NCBI RefSeq assembly: GCF_030384665.1 | Contig: NC_083674.1 | Location: 2,294,001-2,358,000, forward strand | Source: Lodderomyces elongisporus | Taxonomy: Eukaryota; Ascomycota; Pichiomycetes; Serinales; Debaryomycetaceae | Direction: 5' to 3' | Length of the DNA: 64,000 bases | Shown here: positions 1-64,000 of the stretch, in pieces | Layout of the letters: every line of letters begins with the position of its first letter | Position numbering within the stretch: position 1 is the first letter of the stretch | The notes under the pieces: generated by a model | Seen by the model: the letters and a program-made list of their open reading frames with translations, nothing else | Databases searched by the model: none | Told to the model about the DNA's origin: nothing | Program-made: the position numbers and the translations under genes

Positions 1-177
1 TTTGGCAGCACCCATTTGGTTTTTTGTTATGAAGCATTTGGTAGCGTATACAATTGCACACGCCCTTCTGTTCCCCTCACTTCCTCGCGGGTTTTGCAAC
101 CACAATGTATATGGCATAACACAATTTACTTGTTAGTCTCCAACCACAAGGCGTGGCGAGAGGGCTACTTGGTGAAG

Positions 178-185
178 TATAAATA
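178..185 (+). promoter_or_regulatory. TATA box of the left-arm gene
   Basis: TATAAATA lies 150 nt upstream of the ATG at 328. The same octamer in the same context occurs upstream of all sixteen right-hand genes, 173-180 nt from their start codons. Its survival next to a strongly diverged coding region supports a real promoter element. Activity is inferred. Confidence 0.6.
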
Positions 186-214
186 TCCACAAACAAAACC
201 CTTGTGACCTCAAA

Positions 215-245
215 CCTTTTTTTGCCCTTTTCTTCTTCTTTCGCC
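215..245 (+). promoter_or_regulatory. CT-rich tract between TATA box and start codon
   Basis: A pyrimidine-only stretch, broken by single G residues, lies between the TATA box and the ATG. Right-hand units carry a longer version in the same place. CT blocks between TATA and ATG are common in strongly expressed yeast genes and often mark transcription start regions; use in this organism is inferred. Confidence 0.45.
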
Positions 246-327
246 AGAAGTAAACCCACAACCAAAGTCTCACTACGTTTTAAACAAGTCAGACTTTACC
301 TGTTAGTTTACTTAATCAAATTCTAAA

Positions 328-705
328 ATGAAAATTTTTAAGAAGCTTTTTAACACCGCCTCCAAGTCAAAGGAGGCAGAACCAGCCGAACGCAATGTTC
401 GGTATCCAATTCCAGGGGAGACATCAGGCTCACCAGTATCGGTTCCTTCACCGGCTACAGGGTCGGAAACCTTCTACGAGGTAGATTTAGGCGCTGAAGA
501 CGTGGAGGAAAAGAAGCTGGTGAGGAGACAATTCCCCCTGTTTAGACCATTTGGATGGTTTAAAGAGAGGAGAGAGGAGAAGGAGTTAGCTGAAAGGGTT
601 CTTTTGGCTAAGGGGATGGTTGCCGGCATTCGTGCGTTGCATCCCAACAGAAAGAAGAAGAAGAAGATGAATAACAACAACAACAACAACAACAACAACA
701 ACCTC

Positions 706-761
<56 letters not shown>

Positions 762-795
762 CCTCAACAACAACAACAACAACAACAACAACCTC

Positions 796-859
<64 letters not shown>

Positions 860-1707
860 GCTGCAAACCTTTCACATACGGAAAGTTTGTAGCAAACGTA
901 GAGTCATACTGTCCTCGACTGTGTCAGGAAATCAGAGCTTCAATGGGCTTCTCGGATTCCGAATACGTACAGTCCATTTCTCAAGGACTCACAAAACTTG
1001 AGAATGGAAATTACAAATCGGGTGATAGGAAGTTTATTGTACACCGGGTCACAAAGAGAGAATTTGAAAATGTGATCAGGTGGCTCCCTGAAATACTTGG
1101 CGAGGACGAGTATGAGTCGCTACTTATACCTGTCCTTCAATTAGTCGAGATGCAGTTAAAGACGAAAACCAAATACTTCGTTGTAACACGCAATCTCGAC
1201 TATAGGACAGAGTTTTTATTGGAATACAAGTTTTCCCGGAATGGCAAGGAATCTGCTATATCACGTCGCCATCCCAACAATTTCAGGCTCACAGAAACTC
1301 GGAAGTTCCCAGAAAATGAGGCTTGGGATTGGTGGGATAATTATCGCTTTTTAGAAGACGTATCTTTTCTAGCTGCCAAAGAAAGATACGGCTTCAAGTT
1401 TGTAATATGTGCTGCATATGCAGATGATGGGGACCATAGAGTTTGGTATTATATTGATGATTGGTTTAAAGACAGTCCAAGCGGGGTCTCTCGATTAGGT
1501 CAGAGTAGGCGCAAATTGTCTGAGAAGTATGCTCTTTGGATTTACAATCTTTTCAATTTTCATTTGAACCTGGTGGAAGGTCCATTGAAGATGAAGGACT
1601 TTGATCGCATATATCAACGTCCTAGAAAAGAAAAATCCTTTATTCAGAGAAAGTTGGCCGAAATGTTTTGCTGCGATCTGAGACCCTCAAGCTCTGAATC
1701 AATCTGA
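328..1707 (+). CDS. Left-arm paralogue of the array protein, with poly-Asn insert (459 aa)
   Basis: I do not recognise the family. The start at 328 has A at -3, and its first 30 residues align with the start of the array protein (shared pattern FNT-SKSK-PAER-VR-PGE). Homology to the array protein continues after the insert: a block with N-ESY, G-S-Y-QS, YKS-D-KF, I-LP and a final YA-W with H-EG-L-F. There is no signal peptide or membrane segment; the N-terminal third is highly charged. Residues 115-177 are almost pure Asn with three interspersed Leu, preceded by a run of Lys. The insert replaces a short non-repetitive segment of the array protein. Because protein similarity persists where DNA has diverged, this is probably a genuine coding gene. 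The KVRF motif of the array protein reads NVRY here. It is transcribed toward the core. Function unknown. Confidence 0.8.
670..858 (+). repeat. (AAC)n microsatellite encoding poly-Asn
   Basis: A 189-bp run of AAC triplets is interrupted by three CTC codons. It sits in frame inside the left-arm gene, so length changes add or remove whole Asn codons. The right-hand genes have no such run at the equivalent place. Confidence 0.97.
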
Positions 1708-1810
1708 AGGAGTCGAGCTCTTTCTTAGCCCATCTTCTACCCATTCATCTTCAACCTAATCACTGGTGCTAATTGCAGACAAAAAATGAAAAGCAAACCC
1801 GTGTGGCTGA

Positions 1811-1990
1811 TATTCCTACTGCTATTCCTGCTATTCCTGCTATTCCTGCTATTCCTACTGCTATTTCTACTGCTATTTCTACTGCTATTCCTACTGCTAT
1901 TTCTACTGCTATTTCTACTGCTATTTCTACTGCTATTTCTACTGCTATTTCTACTGATATCCCTACTGCTATTCCTGCTGCTTTTTCTGA
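1811..1990. repeat. Pyrimidine-rich 12-bp minisatellite specific to the left arm
   Basis: Tandem copies of a TACTGCTATTTC-like dodecamer, with a shorter CTGCTATTC version at the left edge, lie about 100 bp past the stop codon of the left-arm gene. Right-hand units carry only a single unexpanded segment at the equivalent site, between the poly(A) tract and the spacer. The array is open in several frames, which I treat as a by-product of the 12-bp period. Confidence 0.9.
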
Positions 1991-2000
1991 TGTTACCTCT

Positions 2001-2058
2001 GTTGCTGCTTCACGGATGACTATATCACAAACCCAACCATGATCCCAAAGCAGGGGGA
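2001..2058. repeat. First copy of an internal ~58-bp duplication in the left arm
   Basis: This segment, containing GACTATATCACAAACCCA and a following ATGATCCCAAAG, recurs at 2841-2900 with a few substitutions. In right-hand units it occurs once, next to the spacer. Each left copy abuts one of the two pyrimidine-rich minisatellites, so a segment bearing minisatellite plus boundary was probably duplicated. Confidence 0.8.
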
Positions 2059-2393
2059 GCCCACTGACCTCTGCTACCGTTTCCCATAGCCTACCACAAC
2101 ATTGCACTAGTGTAGCTGCTGACTCACACATTTATTCTGAACTTGGCAGATCCTGCGACAAAATGGCGCCTTTGTCGTATGATCTTGTACGGGGAACGAA
2201 AAATGTCGAGGACGCATATGCACTAGGAGTATCAACAAGGCACAGCGGGATCATATAATCACAGGTTGAGTTGTATAAGTCACCGTGCAAGTTGTTTCAG
2301 ATGGTGCAGAAGTAGAGCTTGCGGAATCTACTTTCGTTTTCGGGATTTGTTTATGTTACATTAAATCATTGTTTGCTCGTGAAGTAATAGTAT

Positions 2394-2427
2394 TACTACC
2401 ACTACTACTACTACTACCACCACCACC

Positions 2428-2486
<59 letters not shown>

Positions 2487-2560
2487 CACCACTACCACCA
2501 CTACCACCACTACCACCACCACCACCACCACCATTACTACGACCGCTACCACCACTAATA
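2394..2560. repeat. (CTA/CCA)n trinucleotide repeat
   Basis: Alternating ACT and ACC triplets run for about 165 bp. Right-hand units carry only a short GGTGGTAGTAGTAGTGG remnant (reverse strand) at this place, so the tract expanded in the left arm or contracted in the array. Confidence 0.9.
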
Positions 2561-2654
2561 TTTATCATATTTATTATACTTAACATATTTATCATAGTGT
2601 GTGCTATCCAATGTCGACCAAACTTAAACCATGCCATTCAAATTTGTCAAGAAT

Positions 2655-2795
2655 GTTTCTGGTGCTACTTCTGGTGTTATTTCTGGTGTTACTTCTGGTG
2701 CTACTTCTGGTGTTATTTCTGGTGTTACTTCTGGTGTTACTTCTGGTGTTATTTCTGGTGTTATTTCTGGTGTTATTTCCGGTGTTATTTCTGGT
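2655..2795. repeat. 12-bp minisatellite at the site of the right-hand 24-bp arrays
   Basis: Tandem TTCTGGTGTTAT/C-type dodecamers. The flank (GTGTGCTATCC, GTCGACCAAACTT, CAAATTTGTCA) matches the flank of the 24-bp arrays of U1-U16, so both occupy the same locus but with different consensus sequences. They have either expanded independently or been homogenised separately. Confidence 0.85.
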
Positions 2796-2840
2796 AGTGT
2801 TGCTGATGCTGTTCCTGCTATTGCTGTTTCTACTATTGAT

Positions 2841-2900
2841 GTTGCTGCTCCATGGCCGACTATATCACAAACCCAGCCATGATCCCAAAGAAGGGGAGCT
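2841..2900. repeat. Second copy of the internal ~58-bp duplication
   Basis: Partner of 2001-2058. The stretch that follows, to about 3070, has no counterpart in the right-hand units and no recognisable gene. Confidence 0.8.
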
Positions 2901-3189
2901 CGCCAAAAAGTGTGCCCGTGTTCATACACCACAAAGGGCCCTGCTACTACTTATTTTATCCGTCACTGGCACGCACACACTTTTGGTATCTCCCATTGCA
3001 CCTGCATCTTCGCTCGTTTAACATATACAGCTTTCACTCGTTTTCAGGAACACATCAAGGTGGGGGACTCGATGACTTTTGCTATTAATCTTTACACTTT
3101 TCTTTCTAATATTAACACACCTTTCTGTTTTTGTATACACTCTGCTATTTGTAAATGAACCATTCTTCTATCTCGCACTCTGCCTACAA

Positions 3190-3564
3190 ATTATTTCTCA
3201 AATTGGACGTTCTGTATATTTCGCGCAATCGCTGTCATTGCAAACTAGAGTATCTCGGGTTGGAGTATGTGTATGTATACGCGCACGTGAGCTGCTGTGA
3301 ACGAGTTAACCTCAGATACACGTAATATACACGTAAGATGGACGCGCGCGGGTGCGTGTGTACTTTACAAAAAACTTTACAAAAAAACACTACAGTGGGC
3401 AGCAGCAGTGATAGGAGCCAGATTCTCCCTATGTTCTGGAAGTGGCGCATTTTTGTAGAACTGACATAGGATCCAGCCTGGGGTTCAACCTAGGGCTCAA
3501 CCTGGGATCCGGCCTATATGATGTAAATGTATGGGGCGGGGAAAGAGGGAGGGAGTAGCTGAGC
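3190..3564 (-). repeat. Near-invariant CpG-rich edge block, left copy
   Basis: Reverse complement of the segment around 12738-13112 in the array. Over the 216 bp at 3235-3450 I find one substitution against the array copy. It contains CACGTG, two TTACGTGTAT repeats and, at 3469-3516, four 12-bp repeats. It includes a 71-codon ORF on the - strand (3235-3450) identical in protein sequence to the array copies. The hydrophobic N-terminus of that ORF (residues 9-28) could be a signal or anchor segment. With one synonymous difference I cannot tell coding constraint from recent exchange. Confidence 0.7.
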
Positions 3565-3565
3565 A

Positions 3566-6500
3566 TGTACTAGTCTGTCGATTTTTCAAGACGGCACCGG
3601 TGAAGAGCTGCATAGTCCATTTTATAGTTGTCCATTATTTCTACAAAGGCAACGAAGTCCCATTCTAAGCAGTTGGTGGGGTACATTTATTTTCATGAAC
3701 TCCTACCCTCTTTTGCACTTGTGACAAAAGTTGAGAAAACAATGTGCACCGCTTCTTCATGTTTGTAAAGCGCGTGTTTGAGATAGAAATTGATGAAAAG
3801 TTCATTAATTAATTAGAAGTAAGTTGAAGCATATTTCTATCTAGATTATTCAAAACCAGTAAAGAGGAAGTACTAGTATCCTTACACACGAAACTGCAAG
3901 GAAAATTCAATGAATAATAGTTCCCTGCACATGACATCACAAAACTACTAAAACCACATGTATCCATAAAGAATAATAGCTAATAATCGAAAGTCATAAA
4001 GACGAGTTCACACAATTACATAGCTTAGATGTCAAGCTTAAATTGCTAACCGTGAAAATGAAGAACAAAGAACACCCATGCAAAAGCAATGAAACAAAGT
4101 TTCAATAAACTTCCTAAATAAAGTTATCAACTAATGCATTAATAACTATTAAACACGAGATATTTTGCTCCCTAGATTCATACATCAGTGAGTGAACCAA
4201 ATTTTGAAACGCTTTTCTCTTTAATCAACTTTCTTCTACAATTGGTAAAATCCTAATACTTTTCAATATCAAAATCGAATCTGAAGGCAATTATTGAAAC
4301 AAATTATTTTTTGTGCGTTAATTCCAGGCACCCAGTAAAAAAGCTCATGAGGGTTAGCGAATGAACTGAAAACATGCTCGAGGGCATTAACTATGACAAG
4401 ACAGAACATATGATGTTACCAGCTAAAACACATGACGTTAGCACTTTACTTTGTAGCTCTACTTCCAAATTTAAGATTAAGTTTATATTACCAACACTGC
4501 TCTCTCAAATAAGTTAATCAAACAAAATAAGAATAAACTTCAGCTAAACTTCCATTTGACTCCAAAAAAGGAATAGATTCCGTATATATTGCATAGATAG
4601 TAGTACATAGCAATACAGAATACAGGAGTATCCTGAGATTTGCGAGCACATTTCGAAGAACATCAACTTGCAAGGTATTATTCAAAGATTATTGAGAAAT
4701 GATCTAAATATTAGATTCCCTACCAGCATGGAGTATAACATCTAACTGACAGCATCTTACATGAATTAATTTATGCAACAAACCAATCTATCTTAAATCT
4801 TTTTCGCACAATACAAAAAGCAAATGACTTGATCAAATACACTATCTTAGCTAACAATTACTTTTATTGTCAAAAACAGATTACCAATTTCGAACGAGCT
4901 ACGTATGTGAGAATCAATAACACTTATAAAAATAATAAAACATTCGCGTACGCTGAAATAAAACAACAATTTGAAAGCATTTGTAATAGAATACCAAATT
5001 GTATTTGAACTACATTTCAGAACCTTTATTGATACAGTAGCGTTGAAAAAAAGGTGTATGACAGAAATTATTGAATCTTACTAATCGTCAATACCAGCTT
5101 TAACAAATAGAGAAATTTTATGAAATTATACAAGAATAAATAGTAATATAAAATGCATAGAAGAAAATAAAAAGCAATAGTTGATTCTTTCAAAAACTAT
5201 GTCTTTACGAAATACGCCACATATAGTAACTTAAGATTTTTTTCAAAAAGTTTATTGTTTGGTTTAACATGCAGTTTCGGAAAGTTACAAAATTTAAACT
5301 AAGAAACGGCTTGATTGTCACTTACCAAAAGCTCGAATTGAATTCAAAATAGCTTAAAAACCAGAAAATAAAAACCTACATCTCTCTTCAAGATGACATA
5401 TACTTCCAAAACCTTTTACTAGAGAGGTAATCTAAAGTACCTTTTATTACAGAATGAATTTTTAAAAACCTACTATTAGAATACAATGTAACTATTGCAA
5501 ATGATAGTAGAGGAGATTGACTTAGATTGCACACTTTAATGGAAATTTCAGTAACGGACCATGTAATTGATAAATTTAGTACTCCAAAAATTCATACTGG
5601 AAGATATGTTGGTTTGATTAAGATGACAATTAGTTCATCATTCAACTGTTACATTAAGCTCTACACAACTCATTCAAGTCGCACTTAACATATTCAATTG
5701 GCCTTTTCGATAGTTTTCTTTCAAATTGTGCCGCGATGCTTTTTAATATTAACATGTTTAGGTTGGTGACTGCTCTATATTAAACACAAAGTGGGTGTAG
5801 TCTAGATTGCCTTTATTGAGTGCTGTAGTTGACAAATAATCACTCTAATTGCGATTTGGATGCGACCTTTTTAAAAAAAATCATATGTCATTATGATTTT
5901 GTCCCACTGGAACAAATAACTATTAAGTTTTGCGGGTGTCAGTTATTGCATTTAGTCATATATGAAATGTTCAAGATAGGACTGAATTTGATCTTAATAG
6001 CCTTTGTAGAGATTTTGGTACTTAAGTTATCATTAAAATTTGTTTTGAGTTTTTTGGGTGAACATAAGAGCCTTAATATCGTACTTTCATTTTTGTTTTT
6101 ATTTCTTCATCTTGAAAGTCCCGCCTGTAGTATACTCTTAGTCGAGACCTTATCCAAGAATATGTTTTTTTCTCGCTATATTATCATTTATCCGTTTAGG
6201 GTTTGCAATAGGTAAAGCATTGGTATTCAAAATTCTTTTGATAGCATATAGGTCTGCCTATGCATTCCTCTCAATTCTCCTGCATTTTAAAGATTGATCG
6301 TTACGAATGCAAAAGGCGTCGCGAAAATGTACAATGTTGTTCAAGCGTTTTTAAAATTTTCTACTTTGGAGCTATTTTTTAATGGTCGACTCGGATTGCT
6401 ATCTTATGTTTTGGTTTATTATTGGCATTCTTGTTATTGGGTTATTAGGCAAAGATATAAGAAAGTTTTACTCATTAGTAATTTAATGCTTTGTTCTTGC

Positions 6501-7396
6501 ATAATTGTCTTTACTAAGTTCCTATTATGGATTATGTTTTGATAGATGAATCCTTTTTTGCGACAGAGTATTGTTAGGTACGGATTGCCATCTGTACCTG
6601 TTAGAATCAACTTTTATTTTCTTGCTTGTAGTGTATGAGGAGTTTTTTCTGCCGTATCATGAAGTAATGCTAAAACGGTCTGGATAAGCACTGCCCTATT
6701 TAGTAATCTTATTTTGAATTGATACTGCTTTTTGCATCGCTCGCGACAGATCATATTGGATTATAAATTACTACGTCCTTTATTTTTTATCAACAGAATA
6801 TTCAGTATTTTGGAGTTAATATGGTATAACTTGCATAATAAATTATTTTTTTTCGCTTTTGGCAAAGCAGGCTGGCTTGTTAGTAAGGTTTTATTTTTTC
6901 GGCTTATGATGCGTCTTGTTTATTATATTCTGATTTGTAATTTAAGCTACGGCTGATTACGAATTTCGTGCTTCGACATTTTGGTAGCTACTGTCGTCTA
7001 TAGTAAAGCAAAGGCTTTGTGGTTAGGAAGACTCATGTCATGTTCTTGAAGTTCAAAAAATGAGCATCATCAATATCGTTTTCTTGGCAGTGTAAGTATT
7101 GTGAAATGTTTGGCAATAATACGTTTAAATTGTTTTCATATTTTCTTGAACCCCCACCCTTTTTTTTGTGATTGCGAAATTTGTTGGTTATTTGTTGCCG
7201 ATCCTGTCCTTGTGTTCTTTTTTTTTGCATGTAAGTGAGTGGCTCTTTTTCTTCCTAATCCTCAAGGTTTGTTTTCTAGTTTGGCTCTAGCATTGCGTCT
7301 TAAATAGTTGATTAATATTACCACCTTGCCATGATGTAAATACATCACTGTGCAACTGGTCATATGCTTCAAAAGTAGCATCTTTTGTAGTTCAAG
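3566..7396. other. AT-rich skewed part of the core, no convincing gene
   Basis: No ORF here looks coding. Longer open frames (5829-6215, 6294-6542, 6732-6956) lie in the T-rich half, where A-containing stop codons are rare, and encode Phe/Leu/Ile-rich sequence. I see no tRNA, tandem repeat or transposon ends. The skew switch lies at about 5.65-5.75 kb. Confidence 0.6.
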
Positions 7397-7853
7397 ATGG
7401 CCTGGCCAATCAGTGCATGGGTTCAGAATTGTGAAGCAGAGACTCGTGTAGATAATGTAGTCAATTTAGACTGTATGACAAGAGAGCAGGTAACTGTTCA
7501 CCTAGCAAGCGATGCAGCTTACAAGTAAGCTAATCAATATGAAATTTCTTATTACCAAACAGACGTAATTTTGGTTGTATATTTGACCATAAGTTGGTAT
7601 TCTCAGATTTAATTCAAGATTAAGACTCTGTGGATAATCTTCTCTGAAGAATTTGAATATCTGGTCACAAAATCTTCACTTTTGATGTATCACCAGACAC
7701 AAGTCTTTTTGATTGAATCTCCTGAAGTCAAAGCATAATAGCTTCTGCTACATGTGAGCAAAACTTTTGTGGGACTGTAATTTTTTTTTTAGAACGACAC
7801 ATGAAGGCACTGGAGCTGGAAAGGTGTTTGAACCGATAGTAGATTATCTTTAA
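7397..7853 (+). CDS. Candidate small two-exon gene (62 codons)
   Basis: Exon 1 runs 7397-7524 from an ATG with A at -3 and ends at a donor GTAAGC. A candidate acceptor, ten T then AG, ends at 7792. Joining to exon 2 (7793-7853, TAA stop) keeps frame and gives a soluble, mixed-composition peptide with GTGAGK near the end of the second exon. Alternatives: an acceptor at 7562 (AAACAG) also keeps frame for 20 codons, and a TTTTGTAG acceptor at 7390 could make exon 1 internal. The candidate sits where the strong strand skew has faded. No family recognised. Splice sites are read by eye, so this is a weak call. Confidence 0.25.
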
Positions 7854-8826
7854 TTGCGACTTTCATATCTCAGAATGAAGAATTGCAAAACGATCTATAA
7901 ACTGTTTGTGCTGTAACTTCATCAGTATTGTTTTTTCTTTCTAGTTCTGAATCTACCTGTGGACAAGCTTCATGATAATTGCAAGTAGGATCCTTTTTCA
8001 TTTCGGAAATAATGGAAAAGACTTGGGGACCTATAGCACGGGGAAGGGCTTGTCCTCGCAATTTTTTGGAAGAGGGTGGGGGGAAGCTAAAAATACCGAT
8101 GGGCAAAGGGAACTACTAAGCAATAGCAATGAAAGTTTGTGATAAGGTGCCGTCTAATTTTGTCTGCTTTTTTGTAAATATTATATATATATATTTTTTT
8201 TGATTGTTACTTGCAAGTTTGGTGTTGGGTGGATGAGAAGTCTCATCTTTCAAAGCAAGAGCCCCCGGCTATTATACCACCCGCTGTTCATCTAGCTCTC
8301 TTGTTTTCGATATTGGTATTATCTCAACCATCCTGTTTATTTATACCCCTTATTATATCCACAACCCAAGAAAAAGACCCACTGAGACTCGCTTCGTCTT
8401 TCCCCGGCATCATTTTTGCATTGCATGTATACAATCTTCGATTTAGTTTGCATAACACTAGCATGATATTTGCATGCATGTCTCTCTTGTTGCTCTCGAT
8501 AAGCTAAATGCTTACTTGATAAATACCATGTACGACACTGGTTAATTTAGCCAATTCGTTAGGCGTCAACTGCCAACACTCTTCCGAGATCAAAGAGACT
8601 GAAAAATTTGATAAGTCTAGAAGAAGTGGAAAGGGACATTTAGCAATATTTTTACGCAAAATTTGAGAAACATGTTATTTCGGTATCCGGTCTCAAATAG
8701 CATTCATGAAAGCAAAATAAACAACATAATTTAATATACAAAACACCAATTCCCAAATTGTATTTTTAGGGCTAGTAGCTGTCCGCTCTTCATTCTAAAG
8801 TGTATTTTGTAGTGGATGCAATGATC
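7854..8826. other. Core segment with no supported gene
   Basis: It contains a 78-codon open frame on the - strand (7870-8106) of unremarkable composition and a 98-codon + strand frame (8211-8507) rich in Leu, Ile and Ser; neither is supported. A short (TA)n followed by T8 lies at about 8182-8202. A TATA-like, then CT-rich, stretch around 8335-8430 could be a promoter, but no good ORF follows it closely. Confidence 0.4.
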
Positions 8827-8923
8827 TCTAACGCATTCAAAAGACCTCCTTGTTGTCAGAGCGCCAGAAATTGAGGTTTTCAATGTCCACGACAACCATC
8901 ATCTCCAATATAATGACTATAGA

Positions 8924-9181
8924 ATGACAACAAAAGCATATTGTGAATTTGGGCTTTTAATGGGTAAAACCAACATAATTCAAAGATATAGCTTGTTAAC
9001 AGTAGAAGAGAGTAGTAACAACTCTCGTTCATTCGTTTCCTCGTGCATGAACAAGTTGATCTCAATTGAACACAGTACCTCAAATGCCAATATATACGGC
9101 ACAGGTGACTTTGGACTTAAACAATATAAGTCGGAAACATCTTATAAATTACAACTCAAGATTCTCTTAAATACCGTTTGA
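8924..9181 (+). CDS. Candidate ORF of unknown function (85 codons; open from 8827)
   Basis: The frame is open from 8827 to the TGA ending at 9181 (about 118 codons), with the first ATG in frame at 8924 and A at -3. Composition is balanced and hydrophilic rather than the Phe/Leu or Asn/Lys bias of chance frames in this core. The upstream in-frame part could belong to an earlier exon, but I found no clean acceptor. No homology to the array protein and no recognised motif. It could still be chance. Confidence 0.25.
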   Translation: MTTKAYCEFGLLMGKTNIIQRYSLLTVEESSNNSRSFVSSCMNKLISIEHSTSNANIYGTGDFGLKQYKSETSYKLQLKILLNTV

Positions 9182-9420
9182 TTAACGACACTTCAAAAGA
9201 AAGTAGTTAGCAACTTTTAACCTATCTGCTCTCTACCATTTTAGTGCATGTATAAAATAACACCAGGGGATATTAAAAATCATTTAGAACCACATAAAAG
9301 TAAATTTCAAATTGCGACCATAGTGTGGCCATCGGGAGTCAAATATATGTAGCTTGCTCCGCATTGAGTGCGTGTAGGAAACGTACCAGTTAATTCATGC
9401 AAAAATTCGAAACATCGATA
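9182..9420. other. Core tail without recognisable features
   Basis: AT-rich; no open frame of note, no repeat, no RNA gene seen. Confidence 0.4.
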
Positions 9421-9488
9421 CCAGAAATGTGAAGCCAATAGTATCCAGTTGCAACGGAAAGTGCACAACTAGAGTTGATGAATAGTGT
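9421..9488 (+). repeat. Degenerate fragment of the repeat unit at the core's right edge
   Basis: Aligned by eye to the promoter-side segment of the array unit at about 12472-12538. Shared runs include GCCAATAGT, GAAAGTG, ACAAC, AGAGT and GATGAAT, with roughly one base in four changed from 9434 on. The next 400 bp of a full unit (hairpin, 12-bp repeats) are missing before U1 starts at 9508. This is therefore an old, decayed end of the array. Confidence 0.65.
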
Positions 9489-9507
9489 CTCAAGATTTAC
9501 TTGATAT

Positions 9508-9670
9508 ACACACCCACCCGCGCGCGTCCATCTTACGTGTATATTACGTGTATCTGAGGTTAACTCGTTCACAGCAGCTCACGTGCGCGTATACATACAC
9601 ATACTCCAACCCGAGATACTCTAGTTTGCAATGACAGCGATTGCGCGAAATATACAGAACGTTCAATTTT
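9508..9670. promoter_or_regulatory. CpG-rich block with CACGTG (U1 copy)
   Basis: Contains CCGCGCGCG, two TTACGTGTAT repeats, the palindrome CACGTG at 9580-9585 and several CG steps, contrasting with the AT-rich core beside it. It is repeated at the start of every unit and in the left arm (within 3190-3370). CACGTG is the core site of bHLH factors such as yeast Cbf1; binding here is not shown. Confidence 0.4.
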
Positions 9671-9779
9671 GTAGGCTGAATGCGAAATAGAAGAATGGTT
9701 CAATTACAAATAGCAGAGTGTTTACATAAACAGAAAAGTGTGTTAATATTAGAAAAAAAAAGTGCAAAGATTAATAGCA

Positions 9780-10075
9780 GGAACAGCAACACCACCAGAC
9801 ATAACATCAGCAACACCATCAGCAACACCATCAGCAACACCACCAGACATAACATCAGTAACACCACCAGACATAACACCAGCAACACAACCAGACATAA
9901 CACCAGCAACACAACCAGACATAACATCAGTAACACCACCAGACATAACACCAGCAACACAACCAGACATAACATCAGCAACACAACCAGACATAACATC
10001 AGCAACACAACCAGCAACACCATCAGCAACACAACCAGCAACACCATCAGCAACGCAACCAGTGACACAACCAGG
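9780..10075. repeat. 12/24-bp tandem array, U1 copy (long form)
   Basis: Built from ACACCACCAGACATAACATC-type 24-mers and ACACCATCAGCA dodecamers. Counterparts: U2 13213-13412, U3 16615-16814, U4 19949-20244, U5 23458-23753, U6 26938-27233, U7 30419-30714, U8 33915-34114, U9 37299-37570, U10 40753-41048, U11 44219-44418, U12 47603-47874, U13 51057-51328, U14 54513-54784, U15 57965-58260, U16 61460-61731. The three length classes differ by 24 or 96 bp. Several frames on both strands stay open because the period is a multiple of three. I do not call a gene: the left arm has a stop codon in the matching - strand frame, and a 4C/5C run shifts the extended frame between units. Confidence 0.92.
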
Positions 10076-10159
10076 AAAAAACACCAGGAATAACACCAAA
10101 AACATTTCTGACAAGTTTGAATGGCATAGTTTGAGTTTGGTCGACGTCGGATAGCACAC

Positions 10160-10225
10160 ACTATAATAAATATGTTGGATATAATAAATATGATAAATAT
10201 GATAAATATTAGTGGTGGTAGTAGT
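10160..10225. repeat. ATAAATATG-type short tandem repeat (U1 copy)
   Basis: Direct copies of a 9-bp AT-rich motif (ATAAATATG) followed by GGTGGTAGTAGTAGTGG. Present in every unit. The left arm has the same AT motif but a large expansion of the trinucleotide part. It could be an unwinding element; no function is shown. Confidence 0.6.
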
Positions 10226-10683
10226 AGTGGTGCTATTCCAACACGAGCAAACAATGATTTTGATGCAACATTAACAAACCCCGGAAGCAGATTCCACAAG
10301 CTTTTCTTCTGCACCATCTGAAACAACTTGCACGGTGACTTACACAACCCAACCTGTGATAATATGATCCCGCTGTGCCTTGTTGATACCCCTAGTGCAT
10401 ATGCATCCTCCACATTTTTCGTTCCCCGTACAAGATCATACGACAAAGGCGCCATTTTGTCGCAGGATCTGCCAAGTTCAGAATAAATGTGTGAGTCGGC
10501 AGCTACACTAGTGCAATGTTGTGGTAGGCTATGGGAAACGGTAGCAGAGGTCGGTGGGCTCCCCCTGCTTTGGGATCATGGTTGGGTTTGTGATATAGTC
10601 ATCCGTGAAGCAGCAACAGAGGTAACATCAGAAATAGCACCAGTGACAGTAACGTGCTTTTTTTTTGTCCGTCTGTTTTTGTA

Positions 10684-10706: not shown

Positions 10707-10713
10707 CCTTTTA

Positions 10714-12087
10714 TTACTTGGTTGAGACCAGCATTAGACTTTTGATCCTCGCTTTTATGTTTTTTATGCAGCGAGTGAAGCTGGTAGTTGGGGGTAGTGT
10801 TTTGATTTTGAACTTTTCTAGATGTAGTTCCCCCTCGATAACCTCAATGTGCTGATCTAAAGTCTTAATCAACCAAGCAGCGTATTCTTCTGGTGTTTTG
10901 ACATTTGCTCCTCCAAACCTAAAAAACCTAAAAAACCTTCTAAACCCCCTCTCCCTGGTGTATGTCCTGTGGTAGTCGACAATCCGCACTTGGATTCCTG
11001 GTCGACTACCCACTTTTCTCTCCACCCCAACTAGAAGCTTATAGCCTGTTTTGTTTCTGGCTATAAGATGGGTCGTGTCCCTTTGCAATTTGTGAAGGAT
11101 GTCCTCGCGTTCTTTGGTAAGTAAGGGGAAGCGGACATTGCCTGTTGGACAGCCCTGGTCAATGGGGTGGTATAATGGCCTCAGAAATGAGGACTTATGG
11201 ACAACGGAGTTGGTGCAAAGTGTTGCGAAGGTGGGTCTGGGTTCGCCCATGTCACATGCGCGTTTGTTCCTGCGTGTCATGTAATTGTATGTGCGTGTGG
11301 TGTTTGTGTTTGTGTTTGTGTTTGTGTCTGTGTCTGTAAATGTGTATGTGTTTGAGGTATATGTGTTTTTCAGGCTTGTTTCTTGTGTGCCCAAGTAATA
11401 TACCTCAGTTGCTTGGTGCTCGTATGCCGGACTTACTGCATAGATAGTTTCCTCCCCTCCAAAATTCATTTTCAAGAGTTGGAAGTGGGGAAGTATCAAT
11501 GATGCCTCTTTGTAGTGGCTTCCCATTCTGGGAAGCTCTCTCCTGATGTCTTCGGAGTGTTCCTCTGAAATCTTGTAGATGAGAAATTTTCCATCTGTAG
11601 ATTTGTAGGCGGTGCTGCCTATTTTTGTTATGGAGTCTTCCATGGACGCAAATGACTGTAAATAGGTGGATTCCAGGCATCCCCACAGCTTTCTTACTCT
11701 TTGAAACAGCTTTGCATGGTAGGACTCGATATTGGTTGTGTATTCTTGGTGCCTAAGAAAAACACTGAAAGTTTCGTCGTACTTCCAGGTTCTCCTGAGG
11801 CAGTCGGCAATACTTTTGTGTATTCCCTCTACAAGAAGAAACCTTTCGGCCTCTTTCTTGGTAAGCTTTTTAACTGGTGTTTCCAGCAGTGGTGCACCTG
11901 AGGGTGATTTCCCAGGTGTTTGCGAAGGTTTGAATCCCTTCGCCAAAGTTGATTTGAGGTTTTGGAAAACCTGCTTGGTTGATTGGGGTACAGGTTCTCC
12001 GGGAAGTTGAAACCGAACCTTGCGTTCGGCTGGTTTTTCCCCCTTTGACTTGGGGGAGGTGTTAAAAGCGTTTTTAAAAAATGACAT
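10714..12087 (-). CDS. Array protein, unit U1 copy (457 aa), family not recognised
   Basis: An intronless ORF with A at -3 of the ATG. Residues 1-90 are Lys/Pro/Ser-rich and likely disordered. KVRF at 23-26 fits the loose RVxF docking pattern for protein phosphatase 1, a weak motif. Residues 95-235 form a predicted globular part conserved with the left-arm protein (N-ESY at 119-123, YKS-D-KF at 161-168, I--LP at 181-186). Residues 251-264 are a Thr-Asn/Thr-Asp linker encoded by a 6-bp repeat. A C-terminal block, conserved around YAAW (402-405) and EGELHLEKF (418-426), follows a basic aromatic patch at 380-391. There is no signal peptide or membrane helix. It is transcribed toward the core. 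Near-identity of all copies plus similarity to the diverged left protein argues that the frame is maintained. Function unknown. This copy has the shortest linker, shared with U3. Confidence 0.8.
   Translation of the reverse strand: MSFFKNAFNTSPKSKGEKPAERKVRFQLPGEPVPQSTKQVFQNLKSTLAKGFKPSQTPGKSPSGAPLLETPVKKLTKKEAERFLLVEGIHKSIADCLRRTWKYDETFSVFLRHQEYTTNIESYHAKLFQRVRKLWGCLESTYLQSFASMEDSITKIGSTAYKSTDGKFLIYKISEEHSEDIRRELPRMGSHYKEASLILPHFQLLKMNFGGEETIYAVSPAYEHQATEVYYLGTQETSLKNTYTSNTYTFTDTDTNTNTNTNTTRTYNYMTRRNKRACDMGEPRPTFATLCTNSVVHKSSFLRPLYHPIDQGCPTGNVRFPLLTKEREDILHKLQRDTTHLIARNKTGYKLLVGVERKVGSRPGIQVRIVDYHRTYTRERGFRRFFRFFRFGGANVKTPEEYAAWLIKTLDQHIEVIEGELHLEKFKIKTLPPTTSFTRCIKNIKARIKSLMLVSTK
11296..11337 (-). 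repeat. In-frame 6-bp repeat (ACAAAC/ACAGAC) in the array gene (U1 copy)
   Basis: Encodes alternating Thr-Asn and Thr-Asp dipeptides. Copy number varies: proteins are 457 aa (U1, U3), 469 (U5-U13, U16), 473 (U4, U14, U15) and 475 (U2). Two 469-aa versions differ in Asn/Asp order: U5, U6, U10 versus U7-U9, U11-U13, U16. Confidence 0.95.
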
Positions 12088-12189
12088 TATTTAAGATTTA
12101 ATTAAGTAAACTAACTGGTAAAGTCTGACTCGTTTAAACTGTACTAAGTGAGACTTTGGTTGTGGGTTTACTTCTGGCGAAAGAAGAAG

Positions 12190-12232: not shown

Positions 12233-12259
12233 TGAGGTCACAAGGGTTTTGTTTGTGGA

Positions 12260-12660: not shown

Positions 12661-12785
12661 TGTGTTGATTATTCCCCTGAGTTTGGTGCGAATTTACAGG
12701 GAAACATTTTTCTACTGAAGTTTGAGGAAAACTGTGGGCTCAGCTACTCCCTCCCTCTTTCCCCGCCCCATACATTTACATCATA

Positions 12786-12833
12786 TAGGCCGGATCCCAG
12801 GTTGAGCCCTAGGTTGAACCCCAGGCTGGATCC
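12786..12833. repeat. Four tandem 12-bp repeats, consensus YAGGYYGRNYCC (U1 copy)
   Basis: TAGGCCGGATCC, CAGGTTGAGCCC, TAGGTTGAACCC and CAGGCTGGATCC in succession. The block recurs in each unit and, inverted, at 3469-3516 in the left arm with no change. The alternating pattern suggests two rounds of duplication or a multi-site binding element. Confidence 0.75.
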
Positions 12834-12851
12834 TATGTCAGTTCTACAAAA

Positions 12852-13067
12852 ATGCGCCACTTCCAGAACATAGGGAGAATCTGGCTCCTATCACTGCTGC
12901 TGCCCACTGTAGTGTTTTTTTGTAAAGTTTTTTGTAAAGTACACACCCACCCGCGCGCGTCCATCTTACGTGTATATTACGTGTATCTGAGGTTAACTCG
13001 TTCACAGCAGCTCACGTGCGCGTATACATACACATACTCCAACCCGAGATACTCTAGTTTGCAATGA
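12852..13067 (+). CDS. Doubtful 71-codon ORF spanning the unit boundary
   Basis: Present at the same place in fifteen units (starts 12852, 16254, 19588, 23097, 26577, 30058, 33554, 36938, 40392, 43858, 47242, 50696, 54152, 57604, 61099) and in the left arm on the opposite strand (3235-3450). The protein is identical in all, with one synonymous difference on the left. Residues 9-28 are hydrophobic, like a signal peptide; the rest is Tyr/Thr/Arg-rich. Its 5' half is missing from U1. Identity may simply reflect DNA homogenisation, so coding status is doubtful. Confidence 0.2.
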   Translation: MRHFQNIGRIWLLSLLLPTVVFFCKVFCKVHTHPRASILRVYYVYLRLTRSQQLTCAYTYTYSNPRYSSLQ

Positions 13068-57200: not shown

Positions 57201-57692
57201 ACAAAAAACCAAATGGGTGCTGCCAAATGGGTGCTGCCAATAGTGTGTGGCTGTAGCAGAAAGTGGACAACCAGAGTGGATGAATTGTGTGTTTGGATGC
57301 ATGTTGGCTCAACACAATCTACAACCTTATACATCCTGCAATGCATTCTATCTCCACAAACAATTCTCGACGGATTGCCGTCAAGCTTGCAACGAGTCGA
57401 GAATTGTTTGTGTGTGTTGATTATTCCCCTGAGTTTGGTGCGAATTTACAGGGAAACATTTTTCTACTGAAGTTTGAGGAAAACTGTGGGCTCAGCTACT
57501 CCCTCCCTCTTTCCCCGCCCCATACATTTACATCATATAGGCCGGATCCCAGGTTGAGCCCTAGGTTGAACCCCAGGCTGGATCCTATGTCAGTTCTACA
57601 AAAATGCGCCACTTCCAGAACATAGGGAGAATCTGGCTCCTATCACTGCTGCTGCCCACTGTAGTGTTTTTTTGTAAAGTTTTTTGTAAAGT
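54241..57692. repeat. Repeat unit U14
   Basis: 3452 bp. U9-type array, spacer and poly(A) (19), two 14-bp repeats, G near the TATA box. Confidence 0.95.
55418..56839 (-). CDS. Array protein, unit U14 copy (473 aa)
   Basis: Linker is four residues longer than the Asp-containing 469-aa form and differs from the equally long U4/U15 linker. It lacks their Pro-to-Leu change. Confidence 0.8.
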   Translation of the reverse strand: MSFFKNAFNTSPKSKGEKPAERKVRFQLPGEPVPQSTKQVFQNLKSTLAKGFKPSQTPGKSPSGAPLLETPVKKLTKKEAERFLLVEGIHKSIADCLRRTWKYDETFSVFLRHQEYTTNIESYHAKLFQRVRKLWGCLESTYLQSFASMEDSITKIGSTAYKSTDGKFLIYKISEEHSEDIRRELPRMGSHYKEASLILPHFQLLKMNFGGEETIYAVSPAYEHQATEVYYLGTQETSLKNTYTSNTYTFTDTDTNTNTNTNTNTNTDTNTNTDTNTNTTRTYNYMTRRNKRACDMGEPRPTFATLCTNSVVHKSSFLRPLYHPIDQGCPTGNVRFPLLTKEREDILHKLQRDTTHLIARNKTGYKLLVGVERKVGSRPGIQVRIVDYHRTYTRERGFRRFFRFFRFGGANVKTPEEYAAWLIKTLDQHIEVIEGELHLEKFKIKTLPPTTSFTRCIKNIKARIKSLMLVSTK

Positions 57693-60600: not shown

Positions 60601-61187
60601 AGGGGAACAGAAGGGCGAGGAAATCCCTTCTGGTAGCTCAGCAGTGTGTGTGCAATTGTATGCGCTACCAAACGCGTCGTAACAAAAAACCAAATGGGTG
60701 CTGCCAAATGGGTGCTGCCAAATGGGTGCTGCCAATAGTGTGTGGCTGTAGCAGAAAGTGGACAACCAGAGTGGATGAATTGTGTGTTTGGATGCATGTT
60801 GGCTCAACACAATCTACAACCTTATACATCCTGCAATGCATTCTATCTCCACAAACAATTCTCGACGGATTGCCGTCAAGCTTGCAACGAGTCGAGAATT
60901 GTTTGTGTGTGTTGATTATTCCCCTGAGTTTGGTGCGAATTTACAGGGAAACATTTTTCTACTGAAGTTTGAGGAAAACTGTGGGCTCAGCTACTCCCTC
61001 CCTCTTTCCCCGCCCCATACATTTACATCATATAGGCCGGATCCCAGGTTGAGCCCTAGGTTGAACCCCAGGCTGGATCCTATGTCAGTTCTACAAAAAT
61101 GCGCCACTTCCAGAACATAGGGAGAATCTGGCTCCTATCACTGCTGCTGCCCACTGTAGTGTTTTTTTGTAAAGTTTTTTGTAAAGT
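57693..61187. repeat. Repeat unit U15
   Basis: 3495 bp. Long 24-bp array, poly(A) 23, 5C run. U4-like through the gene, but with A near the TATA box and three 14-bp repeats, as in its neighbour U13. Confidence 0.95.
58899..60320 (-). CDS. Array protein, unit U15 copy (473 aa)
   Basis: Same protein as U4, including the Pro-to-Leu change, pointing to exchange over about eleven units or inheritance from one ancestral block. Confidence 0.8.
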   Translation of the reverse strand: MSFFKNAFNTSPKSKGEKPAERKVRFQLPGEPVPQSTKQVFQNLKSTLAKGFKPSQTPGKSPSGAPLLETPVKKLTKKEAERFLLVEGIHKSIADCLRRTWKYDETFSVFLRHQEYTTNIESYHAKLFQRVRKLWGCLESTYLQSFASMEDSITKIGSTAYKSTDGKFLIYKISEEHSEDIRRELPRMGSHYKEASLILPHFQLLKMNFGGEETIYAVSPAYEHQATEVYYLGTQETSLKNTYTSNTYTFTDTDTNTNTNTNTNTNTNTNTNTDTNTNTTRTYNYMTRRNKRACDMGEPRLTFATLCTNSVVHKSSFLRPLYHPIDQGCPTGNVRFPLLTKEREDILHKLQRDTTHLIARNKTGYKLLVGVERKVGSRPGIQVRIVDYHRTYTRERGFRRFFRFFRFGGANVKTPEEYAAWLIKTLDQHIEVIEGELHLEKFKIKTLPPTTSFTRCIKNIKARIKSLMLVSTK

Positions 61188-64000
61188 ACACACCCACCCG
61201 CGCGCGTCCATCTTACGTGTATATTACGTGTATCTGAGGTTAACTCGTTCACAGCAGCTCACGTGCGCGTATACATACACATACTCCAACCCGAGATACT
61301 CTAGTTTGCAATGACAGCGATTGCGCGAAATATACAGAACGTTCAATTTTGTAGGCTGAATGCGAAATAGAAGAATGGTTCAATTACAAATAGCAGAGTG
61401 TTTACATAAACAGAAAAGTGTGTTAATATTAGAAAAAAAAAGTGCAAAGATTAATAGCAGGAACAGCAACACCACCAGACATAACATCAGCAACACCATC
61501 AGCAACACCATCAGCAACACCACCAGACATAACACCAGCAACACAACCAGACATAACACCAGCAACACAACCAGACATAACATCAGTAACACCACCAGAC
61601 ATAACACCAGCAACACAACCAGACATAACATCAGCAACACAACCAGACATAACATCAGCAACACAACCAGCAACACCATCAGCAACACAACCAGCAACAC
61701 CATCAGCAACGCAACCAGTGACACAACCAGGAAAAAACACCAGGAATAACACCAAAAACATTTCTGACAAGTTTGAATGGCATAGTTTGAGTTTGGTCGA
61801 CGTCGGATAGCACACACTATAATAAATATGTTGGATATAATAAATATGATAAATATGATAAATATTAGTGGTGGTAGTAGTAGTGGTGCTATTCCAACAC
61901 GAGCAAACAATGATTTTGATGCAACATTAACAAACCCCGGAAGCAGATTCCACAAGCTTTTCTTCTGCACCATCTGAAACAACTTGCACGGTGACTTACA
62001 CAACCCAACCTGTGATAATATGATCCCGCTGTGCCTTGTTGATACCCCTAGTGCATATGCATCCTCCACATTTTTCGTTCCCCGTACAAGATCATACGAC
62101 AAAGGCGCCATTTTGTCGCAGGATCTGCCAAGTTCAGAATAAATGTGTGAGTCGGCAGCTACACTAGTGCAATGTTGTGGTAGGCTATGGGAAACGGTAG
62201 CAGAGGTCGGTGGGCTCCCCTGCTTTGGGATCATGGTTGGGTTTGTGATATAGTCATCCGTGAAGCAGCAACAGAGGTAACATCAGAAATAGCACCAGTG
62301 ACAGTAACGTGCTTTTTTTTTGTCCGTCTGTTTTTGTATTTTTTTTTTTTTTTTTTTCCTTTTATTACTTGGTTGAGACCAGCATTAGACTTTTGATCCT
62401 CGCTTTTATGTTTTTTATGCAGCGAGTGAAGCTGGTAGTTGGGGGTAGTGTTTTGATTTTGAACTTTTCTAGATGTAGTTCCCCCTCGATAACCTCAATG
62501 TGCTGATCTAAAGTCTTAATCAACCAAGCAGCGTATTCTTCTGGTGTTTTGACATTTGCTCCTCCAAACCTAAAAAACCTAAAAAACCTTCTAAACCCCC
62601 TCTCCCTGGTGTATGTCCTGTGGTAGTCGACAATCCGCACTTGGATTCCTGGTCGACTACCCACTTTTCTCTCCACCCCAACTAGAAGCTTATAGCCTGT
62701 TTTGTTTCTGGCTATAAGATGGGTCGTGTCCCTTTGCAATTTGTGAAGGATGTCCTCGCGTTCTTTGGTAAGTAAGGGGAAGCGGACATTGCCTGTTGGA
62801 CAGCCCTGGTCAATGGGGTGGTATAATGGCCTCAGAAATGAGGACTTATGGACAACGGAGTTGGTGCAAAGTGTTGCGAAGGTGGGTCTGGGTTCGCCCA
62901 TGTCACATGCGCGTTTGTTCCTGCGTGTCATGTAATTGTATGTGCGTGTGGTGTTTGTGTTTGTGTCTGTGTTTGTGTTTGTGTCTGTGTTTGTGTTTGT
63001 GTTTGTGTTTGTGTCTGTGTCTGTAAATGTGTATGTGTTTGAGGTATATGTGTTTTTCAGGCTTGTTTCTTGTGTGCCCAAGTAATATACCTCAGTTGCT
63101 TGGTGCTCGTATGCCGGACTTACTGCATAGATAGTTTCCTCCCCTCCAAAATTCATTTTCAAGAGTTGGAAGTGGGGAAGTATCAATGATGCCTCTTTGT
63201 AGTGGCTTCCCATTCTGGGAAGCTCTCTCCTGATGTCTTCGGAGTGTTCCTCTGAAATCTTGTAGATGAGAAATTTTCCATCTGTAGATTTGTAGGCGGT
63301 GCTGCCTATTTTTGTTATGGAGTCTTCCATGGACGCAAATGACTGTAAATAGGTGGATTCCAGGCATCCCCACAGCTTTCTTACTCTTTGAAACAGCTTT
63401 GCATGGTAGGACTCGATATTGGTTGTGTATTCTTGGTGCCTAAGAAAAACACTGAAAGTTTCGTCGTACTTCCAGGTTCTCCTGAGGCAGTCGGCAATAC
63501 TTTTGTGTATTCCCTCTACAAGAAGAAACCTTTCGGCCTCTTTCTTGGTAAGCTTTTTAACTGGTGTTTCCAGCAGTGGTGCACCTGAGGGTGATTTCCC
63601 AGGTGTTTGCGAAGGTTTGAATCCCTTCGCCAAAGTTGATTTGAGGTTTTGGAAAACCTGCTTGGTTGATTGGGGTACAGGTTCTCCGGGAAGTTGAAAC
63701 CGAACCTTGCGTTCGGCTGGTTTTTCCCCCTTTGACTTGGGGGAGGTGTTAAAAGCGTTTTTAAAAAATGACATTATTTAAGATTTAATTAAGTAAACTA
63801 ACTGGTAAAGTCTGACTCGTTTAAACTGTACTAAGTGAGACTTTGGTTGTGGGTTTACTTCTGGCGAAAGAAGAAGAAGAAAAAGGAAAAGAAGAAAAAG
63901 AAAAGGGCAAAAAAAGGTTTGAGGTCACAAGGATTTTGTTTGTGGATATTTATACTTCACCAAGTAGCCCTCTCGCCACGCCTTGTGGTTGGAGACTAAC
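61188..64000. repeat. Repeat unit U16 (cut by window end)
   Basis: U9/U12-type array, spacer and poly(A) (19), A near the TATA box. The window ends in the promoter-side region, so the array continues to the right. Confidence 0.95.
62365..63774 (-). CDS. Array protein, unit U16 copy (469 aa)
   Basis: Same protein as U8. Complete, with its TATA box (63947-63954 by offset) still inside the window. Confidence 0.8.
   Translation of the reverse strand: MSFFKNAFNTSPKSKGEKPAERKVRFQLPGEPVPQSTKQVFQNLKSTLAKGFKPSQTPGKSPSGAPLLETPVKKLTKKEAERFLLVEGIHKSIADCLRRTWKYDETFSVFLRHQEYTTNIESYHAKLFQRVRKLWGCLESTYLQSFASMEDSITKIGSTAYKSTDGKFLIYKISEEHSEDIRRELPRMGSHYKEASLILPHFQLLKMNFGGEETIYAVSPAYEHQATEVYYLGTQETSLKNTYTSNTYTFTDTDTNTNTNTNTDTNTNTDTNTNTTRTYNYMTRRNKRACDMGEPRPTFATLCTNSVVHKSSFLRPLYHPIDQGCPTGNVRFPLLTKEREDILHKLQRDTTHLIARNKTGYKLLVGVERKVGSRPGIQVRIVDYHRTYTRERGFRRFFRFFRFGGANVKTPEEYAAWLIKTLDQHIEVIEGELHLEKFKIKTLPPTTSFTRCIKNIKARIKSLMLVSTK

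Follow-up and report, generated by a model that had tools for sequence, protein, structure and literature searches.

We analyzed a 64,000-nucleotide window of the Lodderomyces elongisporus NRRL YB-4239 genome (C2:2294001-2358000) and found two long convergent gene arrays around a core that is free of genes. The left array (C2:~2182.6k-2297.6k) spans ~115 kb with 30 gene copies and lies almost wholly outside the window, entering it with its last, core-proximal unit (1 to 3564, plus strand), which is 97% identical to the preceding unit up to position 3403. The right array spans ~94 kb; units 1 to 16 of its 27 gene-bearing units, each 3.35 to 3.51 kb long, occupy positions 9508 to 64000 on the minus strand, with their genes facing the core. 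Arrays and core together make up a 222-kb block. An earlier note on this DNA had described at least 16 right-hand copies of a repeat that carries a gene, and both points held: each copy contains an open gene, and the 16 copies in the window belong to a series of 27 gene starts. The note had also placed the same repeat on both flanks, which proved wrong: the left flank closes a series of 30 units that are related to the right-hand ones but are 3.7 to 4.0 kb long and carry a different gene.

Both arrays have the structure of gene-bearing macrosatellites, in which a kilobase-scale unit with a gene is repeated head to tail in near-identical copies (27 and 30). The mean copy-to-copy difference was 0.17% over 26 right-hand units and 0.35% over 15 left-hand units. 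One source of unit length variation in the right array is a 24-bp minisatellite (9784 to 10062, plus strand), present in every right-hand unit in 7.6 to 11.6 copies.

The left-array gene in the window (328 to 1707, plus strand) encodes 459 amino acids when CTG is read as serine and belongs to a family, F2, with 30 copies on C2, 7 on C8, and a broken one at C8:825k. The first right-array gene (10714 to 12087, minus strand; 457 amino acids) belongs to a second family, F1, whose further members in the window start, by lower coordinate, at 14048, 17450, 20883, 24389, 27870, 31352, 34750, 38204, 41684, 45054, 48508, 51964, 55418, 58899, and 62365, all on the minus strand. Left- and right-array genes share 24 to 28% identity and are different members of one family; across families, array genes have diverged to 20 to 40% identity.

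PF01504 matched the F2 protein at an E value of 0.0025, the Pfam matches of single proteins falling short of the cut-off, and a profile search against PDB sequences gave a PIP kinase match with an E value of 5e-12. The 50 Foldseek matches listed were all PIP kinases, matching in part (TM 0.24 to 0.30 of the query), with a structure model that is confident only for residues 73 to 222. By sequence profile and predicted fold, the array protein is thus a member of the PIP kinase family (PF01504). The VIK lysine and the aspartate of MDYSLL are catalytic residues of PIP kinases. In the profile alignment with PI5P4K2B, the former is replaced by tyrosine and the latter by glycine in the array protein, so the catalytic residues are not kept; the family is PIP-kinase-like and degenerate. 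Values of dN/dS were 0.25 to 0.44 between four pairs of families, at a dS of 0.96 to 2.4 that is near or beyond saturation, and, on few changes, 0.67 and 0.77 within a family between chromosomes and 1.20 between the two C3 arrays; because of the saturation and the few changes, these values allow no firm statement on selection. The Candida Gene Order Browser (CGOB) records as cluster 280 a tandem, species-specific L. elongisporus family with a PIPKc domain and up to 13 members (PMC2880306). It is very probably the same family, for which the gapless assembly holds at least about 141 gene copies.

The units of the two sides also share non-coding modules. Module A (1975 to 2416, plus strand) is common to units of several gene families and has an inverted copy in the right array (10207 to 10643, minus strand) that is 92% identical to the left one. 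Identity was 94% on C7, 93% at the left edge of the C4 array, 97% to part of a C4 unit, and 99.7% to the C8 units of the F2 family; the C5 edge gave only short, weak matches (66 bp at 86% and 116 bp at 78%). A 34-mer from module A occurs 144 times genome-wide (control, 0). No reading frame was found in module A, and its differences are spread over codon positions. Module B, also non-coding, lies at the core edge (3080 to 3564, plus strand), with inverted copies at 9507 to 9779 (minus strand), where it is truncated by the core border, and at 12738 to 13212. Positions 3080 to 3362 are 92% identical to 9779 to 9507 in inverted orientation, and 3080 to 3564 are 95% identical to later right-hand units. 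A 36-mer from module B occurs 134 times genome-wide (control, 0), and a single-strand DNA fold of this core-edge module gave no signal (z = 0.49). The alignments indicate that the inverted repeat around the core is formed by these shared modules, which flank it directly at 92 to 95% identity, short and discontinuous. The inverted flanking repeat of the earlier note therefore survives for the modules, whereas genes and whole units differ between the sides.

Across the genome, the family comprises at least about 141 copies and ~0.55 Mb on seven of the eight contigs, and the summed spans of the arrays amount to ~3.4% of the genome; for C1, no array was among the matches listed. Together with the window, the sequence read came to about 0.36 Mb of a 16.09-Mb genome, about 0.27 Mb of it on C2. 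The arrays on C4, C5, and C7 were bordered by ordinary genes in the sequence read to either side, and no core-like stretch was seen near the C3, C6, and C8 arrays in the parts read. The comparison with equivalent regions elsewhere, which the earlier note had proposed as a check, gave no parallel in the parts read: these repeats do not surround a core on every chromosome (no listed array on C1, arrays among genes on C4, C5, and C7), and since arrays also sit among ordinary genes on other chromosomes, they are not a general part of the centromere in L. elongisporus. The rule that an array marks the centromere, with the core sought downstream and then upstream of the array genes, was rejected because the flanks read at the C4, C7, C5, C3, and C8 arrays were genic. 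Two samples from C3:628-637k had no frame longer than 169 codons. The interval C3:651-656k, which looked gene-free in two samples, was rejected when the intervening stretch was found to hold a 420-aa frame; by eye, this frame looks like an aspartate aminotransferase.

The core itself (3565 to 9507, C2:2297565-2303507) is 5,943 bp long. Its borders were confirmed, with left-array homology stopping at 3564 and right-hand homology beginning at 9507/9508, as was its single-copy state, the whole 5,943 bp matching only itself in the 16.09-Mb genome. A comparison of the core with itself and all other sequence retrieved gave no result, and neither tRNA nor Rfam matches were found in the window. The longest open reading frame in the core encodes 85 amino acids (53 to 155 in shuffles). 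The claim that the core is AT-rich stood only relative to the arrays (33.6% GC, against 43.4% in the right array), since ordinary intergenes have 32.8% GC; the genome as a whole has 37.2% (PMC10586162). A unique, gene-free core of a few kilobases is also a feature of the inverted-repeat (HIR-type) centromeres of the CUG-Ser1 clade.

At Candida centromeres, GC skew passes from minus to plus and AT skew does the opposite, and this pattern in intergenic DNA was the basis on which Koren et al. (2010) predicted L. elongisporus centromeres (PMC2924309). The core shows it, with a switch near 5.7 to 6.1 kb of the window across which GC skew goes from −0.09 to +0.14 and AT skew from +0.14 to −0.22 (1,400 bp per side). 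The skew-switch score of the core was 0.38, against 0.04 ± 0.06 and a largest value of 0.18 in 200 dinucleotide shuffles. At 1,400 bp per side the core scored 0.59 and five long ordinary intergenes 0.23 at most; when each side was shortened to 1,000 bp, an ordinary intergene, out of six examined, likewise reached 0.59. According to a legend in the same paper, the published L. elongisporus skew sites have high GC, scaffold 7 apart, which the core at 33.6% does not.

We put at about even the chance that the core is the small regional (epigenetic) centromere of C2, with a constitutive replication origin and with the arrays grown around it. The gene-free core would then serve as the site of Cse4 loading; a divergent H3-like frame at C2:2124467-2124805 may be Cse4. 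The core would also hold the origin, whose activity would have left the skew reversal. Macrosatellites of the species-specific, degenerate PIP-kinase family would have grown on either side, probably through unequal exchange, and their shared modules would supply the inverted repeat. The gene-free core, skew reversal, and inverted modules speak for this reading and lend partial support to the centromere-like layout of the earlier note, whereas the arrays without a core elsewhere and the ordinary GC content speak against it. PMC7263194 describes the centromeres of L. elongisporus as free of inverted repeats, which also counts against this reading.

A serious but less probable explanation is that growing macrosatellites trapped a long intergenic spacer of the ordinary kind between them and that the C2 centromere lies elsewhere. 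The GC content of the core equals that of ordinary intergenes, the best of 1,162 ordinary positions all but equaled its skew score (0.380 against 0.381), no centromere-like neighbor was seen beside other arrays in the parts read, and our reading covered about 0.27 Mb of the 2.78-Mb C2. At 5.9 kb, however, such a spacer would exceed every other gene-free stretch seen (4.26 kb at most in 158.7 kb of other sequence measured), with skew well above that of shuffles and a small simple-repeat load, its microsatellite and homopolymer content each lying below that of 25 of 26 other gaps. Moreover, repeat-flanked skewed DNA is on record in this species, on scaffolds 5 and 9, in a statement by Koren et al. 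for which no data were shown (PMC2924309).

An assembly artefact is improbable, whether arrays of two chromosomes were wrongly joined or their copies miscounted. The units differ by just 0.17 to 0.35% on average, and arrays of 94 to 115 kb are far longer than the reads (>20 kb at 25x; PMC10586162), but individual copies have their own variants and length differences and the contig sizes agree with the karyotype (PMC10586162). In addition, relatives of the genes at the outer ends of the 222-kb block, a ZZ-type gene and a glutaredoxin-like gene, are one gene apart in Candida oxycetoniae and Lodderomyces beijingensis, judged by locus number and equal-length contigs, which places the two arrays at a single locus. 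From these gene numbers, we infer that the block grew at one site and is neither a subtelomere nor a misjoin. More improbable still is a core that acts as a strong, constitutive origin of replication and has no centromere function; the skew reversal, an origin footprint in the argument of Koren et al. (PMC2924309), would fit it. Least probable are the two alternatives of the earlier note, taken here as a subtelomeric array shifted to an internal position and a D4Z4-type macrosatellite with one unit inverted by chance: the gene-bearing tandem units with internal minisatellites do make the arrays macrosatellites, but ~384 kb of the 2,781,521-bp C2 separate their right side from the contig end, a telomere 24-mer (up to 3 mismatches) is absent from the window, and the left side is no outlier but a 30-copy array.

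The site shares features with several known systems. In Schizosaccharomyces pombe, a unique central core lies between inverted repeats, and the outer dg/dh repeats are heterochromatic; the L. elongisporus repeats carry an open gene. Human D4Z4-like macrosatellites consist of tandem units of a few kilobases, each with a gene, that are near-identical within an array. The L. elongisporus arrays resemble them in all these respects but, unlike D4Z4, comprise several related gene families with common modules on seven chromosomes of a 16-Mb genome. The S. pombe comparison has also been drawn for the inverted-repeat centromeres of the CUG-Ser1 clade (PMC4741521), to which Candida tropicalis, C. sojae, C. 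viswanathii, and C. parapsilosis belong along with L. elongisporus. Centromeres of these four species likewise have a unique, gene-free core of a few kilobases between inverted repeats, but there each centromere has a single pair of kilobase arms, an arrangement shared by every chromosome or almost every one (PMC4741521, PMC7292649, PMC7263194); the site described here has gene arrays of ~115 and 94 kb, inverted modules of a few hundred base pairs, and coreless arrays elsewhere. The small regional centromeres of C. albicans and the L. elongisporus predictions resemble it in having a unique core without genes across which GC and AT skew reverse; the account of C. albicans in PMC2924309 describes no such long arrays, and the predictions mostly have high GC, with flanking repeats mentioned at two. 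Repeat-flanked skewed DNA (Koren et al., PMC2924309) and the gene family (CGOB, PMC2880306) were thus already known, while our literature searches turned up no publication that places these arrays at a centromere.

We regard as rather unlikely a further possibility, that the modules, which stayed near-identical in ~140 units across seven chromosomes as the genes diverged, frame the centromere, hold it in place, and can seed such framing elsewhere. Pericentromeric repeats would then be supplied by a pseudokinase family that is selfish or species-specific. Centromere type changes fast in the Candida clade, between unique, inverted-repeat, and retrotransposon-linked forms, and L. elongisporus is an outgroup of the C. 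parapsilosis group. The earlier record of no inverted repeats at its centromeres rested on an assembly with 117 gaps, and the gapless assembly offers a concrete, testable candidate site with repeats around a core. If Cse4 is present at the core, convergent gene arrays of great length, ~209 kb in all, would frame a centromere in a budding yeast; if Cse4 is absent, the site would be a clear case in which the growth of macrosatellites by itself produced a centromere-like layout. In both cases the arrays stand out as a large feature, specific to L. elongisporus, that has been little described.

The core (3565-9507, 5943 bp), the candidate centromere of contig C2, matched the genome only once, both whole and as a 1-kb piece, as the earlier note had proposed. 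We searched the whole assembly of Lodderomyces elongisporus NRRL YB-4239 (GCA_030384665.1; 16,086,460 bases in eight contigs, C1 to C8, with an N50 of 2,328,861, the length of C3, and 2,781,521 bases in C2), translating CTG as serine throughout. The core had no ORF longer than 85 amino acids, and since the longest in 100 dinucleotide shuffles ranged from 53 to 155, there was no sign of a gene within it. Scans for tRNAs and Rfam families detected none in the 64-kb window (C2:2294001-2358000). The core was the largest gene-free stretch in the sequence measured, which took in 158.7 kb of other DNA, the second being 4.26 kb. Simple sequence made up less of it (microsatellite, 0.4%; homopolymer, 2.6%) than of other intergenes, with just 1 of 26 other gaps of at least 800 bp containing less on each measure. 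GC content was 33.6% in the core, 32.8% in intergenes (158.7 kb from the flanks and from other contigs), and 43.4% in the right array. The core, a GC dip between GC-rich arrays, is therefore AT rich relative to the arrays alone, and its description as AT rich does not extend to a comparison with ordinary intergenes.

The flanking arrays, tandem sets of degenerate PIP-kinase-like genes, are both oriented toward the core. The left array comprises 30 copies on the plus strand, starting at about C2:2182.6k and preceded by ordinary genes (Pfam). In its fetched part, complete copies have frames of 450 to 527 amino acids, and an Asn-coding (AAC) tract of the left-array gene lies at window positions 673-859 and at homologous places. 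The right array has 27 minus-strand gene starts, in units of 3348 to 3513 bp, and ends near C2:2397.7k; ordinary genes resume at C2:2405113. Between C2:2397.7k and 2405k lie degenerate and inverted right-array pieces, as expected for an old array edge. The 26 whole right-array units differed by a mean of 0.17%, with adjacent units more similar than distant ones (rank correlation, 0.36; the pairs are not independent), whereas the 15 fetched left-array units differed by 0.35%, with a neighbor rank correlation of −0.07. Unequal exchange is therefore supported for the right array only. The proposal that the same repeat borders both sides of the core was right for the noncoding parts of the units, modules A (1975-2416) and B (3080-3564), which have inverted copies across the core. 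It fails for the genes, which are 28% identical over the compared domain and 24 to 25% over their whole length and belong to different members of one family.

A profile of four family members matched PI5P4K2B among PDB sequences (E value, 5e-12), the match covering the N-lobe and the first part of the C-lobe. The predicted fold was fairly confident within residues 73 to 222 only (whole-model mean pLDDT, 48.5), and the 50 Foldseek matches listed were all PIP kinases, partial, with a query TM of 0.24 to 0.30. The VIK Lys and the MDYSLL Asp are catalytic residues of PIP kinases; in the alignment to PI5P4K2B they are replaced by Tyr and Gly, respectively, which suggests that the array-gene product has lost catalysis. 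The genome also carries, on C1 and C2, PIP kinase genes outside this family that pass the Pfam cutoff. One right-array protein is PVL30_002165 of L. elongisporus, and among 5.8 billion proteins searched there were four matches: P0001, encoded by the window; P0002 and P0004, from L. elongisporus; and P0003, a contig protein closely resembling the C5 family. CGOB (PMC2880306) had already described a tandem PIPKc family in L. elongisporus, with up to 13 members, that was missing from the other Candida genomes in its comparison.

Three protein searches of the genome gave at least 150, 138, and 154 matches and placed the family on C2 to C8. Our tally reached at least 141 gene copies covering about 0.55 Mb by summed spans, with lower bounds of 30 + 27 on C2, 13 + 2 + 2 on C3, 9 + 1 on C4, 12 on C5, 12 + 1 on C6, 16 on C7, and 7 + 8 + 1 on C8. 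A module A 34-mer occurred 144 times genome-wide (on C2, C3, C4, C6, and C7 among the 100 matches listed) and a module B 36-mer 134 times (on C2, C3, C4, C5, C6, and C8 among the 100 listed); their reversed controls had no occurrence in the genome. Among the matches listed in the protein and k-mer searches, none to the family or modules fell on C1. Module A of a left-array unit was 92 to 97% identical to that of other families' units on C2, C4, and C7 and 99.7% identical to that of the same family on C8, with no more than short weak matches at the C5 edge. The family proteins compared were 21 to 42% identical to the right-array protein. The sameness of the modules reflects either conversion between arrays or constraint. 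With near-identical noncoding modules on C2 to C8 and diverged genes, the units resemble a constant chassis with changing cargo, and there is about one module copy per unit on several chromosomes. A further array type, at C3:550-614k, C7:488-562k, and C8:897-934k, has open frames of 634 to 1048 codons among the matches listed; it has its N-terminal 33 residues in common with the C5 family (76 to 79%), and its downstream frames are interrupted.

We read stretches to the left and right of the arrays on C4 (9.5 and 7.4 kb), C7 (9.3 and 7.7 kb), and C5 (2.2 and 7.5 kb), together with 9.0 kb of a 50-kb gap on C8, 2.0 kb on C6, and, on C3, 9.0 kb, nine 1.3-kb samples, and 2.2 kb of a 40-kb gap. In the parts read on C4, C5, C7, C8, and C3:619-628k, no equivalent of the C2 layout appeared; there, the arrays have ordinary-gene frames close by. 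Stop-free frames of more than 200 codons were present in three of the nine C3 samples; one 420-amino-acid frame joined two samples at C3:651-656k, and two at C3:630-635k had no frame longer than 169 codons, so a similar core may lie within C3:628-637k. On C6, about 1.4 kb with no 80-amino-acid frame was followed by a frame running on. Among the stretches read, an array pair around a gene-free core was found on C2 only. Since ordinary genes adjoin arrays elsewhere, the presence of an array is an unreliable centromere marker, and the inverted-array part of the centromere analogy is weakened.

Inverted-repeat centromeres are described in PMC4741521 and PMC7292649. L. elongisporus centromeres are given as having no inverted repeats in PMC7263194, a judgment based on the assembly of 2009, in which 117 gaps were present (PMC10586162). 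In the open-access papers searched, we found none on these arrays at a centromere beyond a remark by Koren et al. (PMC2924309) on skewed DNA with flanking repeats on scaffolds 5 and 9.

Near 5.7 to 6.1 kb, GC skew in the core turns from negative to positive, and AT skew does the reverse. At 2500 bp per side, the core scored 0.381, against 0.04 ± 0.06 (maximum, 0.18) in 200 shuffles. The top score among 1162 ordinary positions was 0.380, at a position that did not show all four signs; among the 17 ordinary positions that did, it was 0.364. Coding-strand changes are a possible cause of comparable switches. At 1400 bp per side, the core scored 0.59, against a top score of 0.23 among five long intergenes; at 1000 bp, one of six intergenes also scored 0.59. 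The core skew is thus real and exceeds that of other intergenes at the larger scale, yet it is not unique. Koren et al. report the same skew direction at Candida albicans centromeres and predict L. elongisporus centromeres with skew, at sites that, scaffold 7 apart, go with high GC. In contrast, GC is not raised in the core, which counts against it.

To the left of the block, a glutaredoxin-like gene (C2:2178571-2178918) has relatives in Candida oxycetoniae (KGF56_003223, 53%) and Lodderomyces beijingensis (LODBEIA_P22670, 58%), and to the right, a ZZ-type gene (C2:2405113-2407548) has the relatives KGF56_003221 (40%) and LODBEIA_P22650 (37%). One match in the ZZ-type search, P0023, is filed as an Asgard group archaeon yet groups with sequences of Candida tropicalis; it seems to be fungal contamination of a MAG. 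Both relatives lie on contigs of equal size (143,145 in C. oxycetoniae and 2,306,304 in L. beijingensis) and are one gene apart by locus number, in L. beijingensis if numbering runs in tens. The intervening gene is presumably the counterpart of the GPR1/FUN34-like gene at C2:2181147 (Pfam). This spacing argues that the block, roughly 222 kb long, arose by growth or insertion at a single intergenic site, judging from locus numbers. Such an origin is compatible with a centromere gathering repeats and with a plain array site, and it speaks against the layout being a false join of two chromosomes.

The centromere-like layout described in the earlier note is real, with the AT-richness and the identity of the repeats corrected. 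That the core is the centromere of C2 is plausible, with the chances for and against about balanced. An H3-like histone frame at C2:2124467-2124805 (132.7 bits, where the three top-scoring copies reach about 157) is a possible Cse4. The centromere reading is now tied to a precise, testable site.
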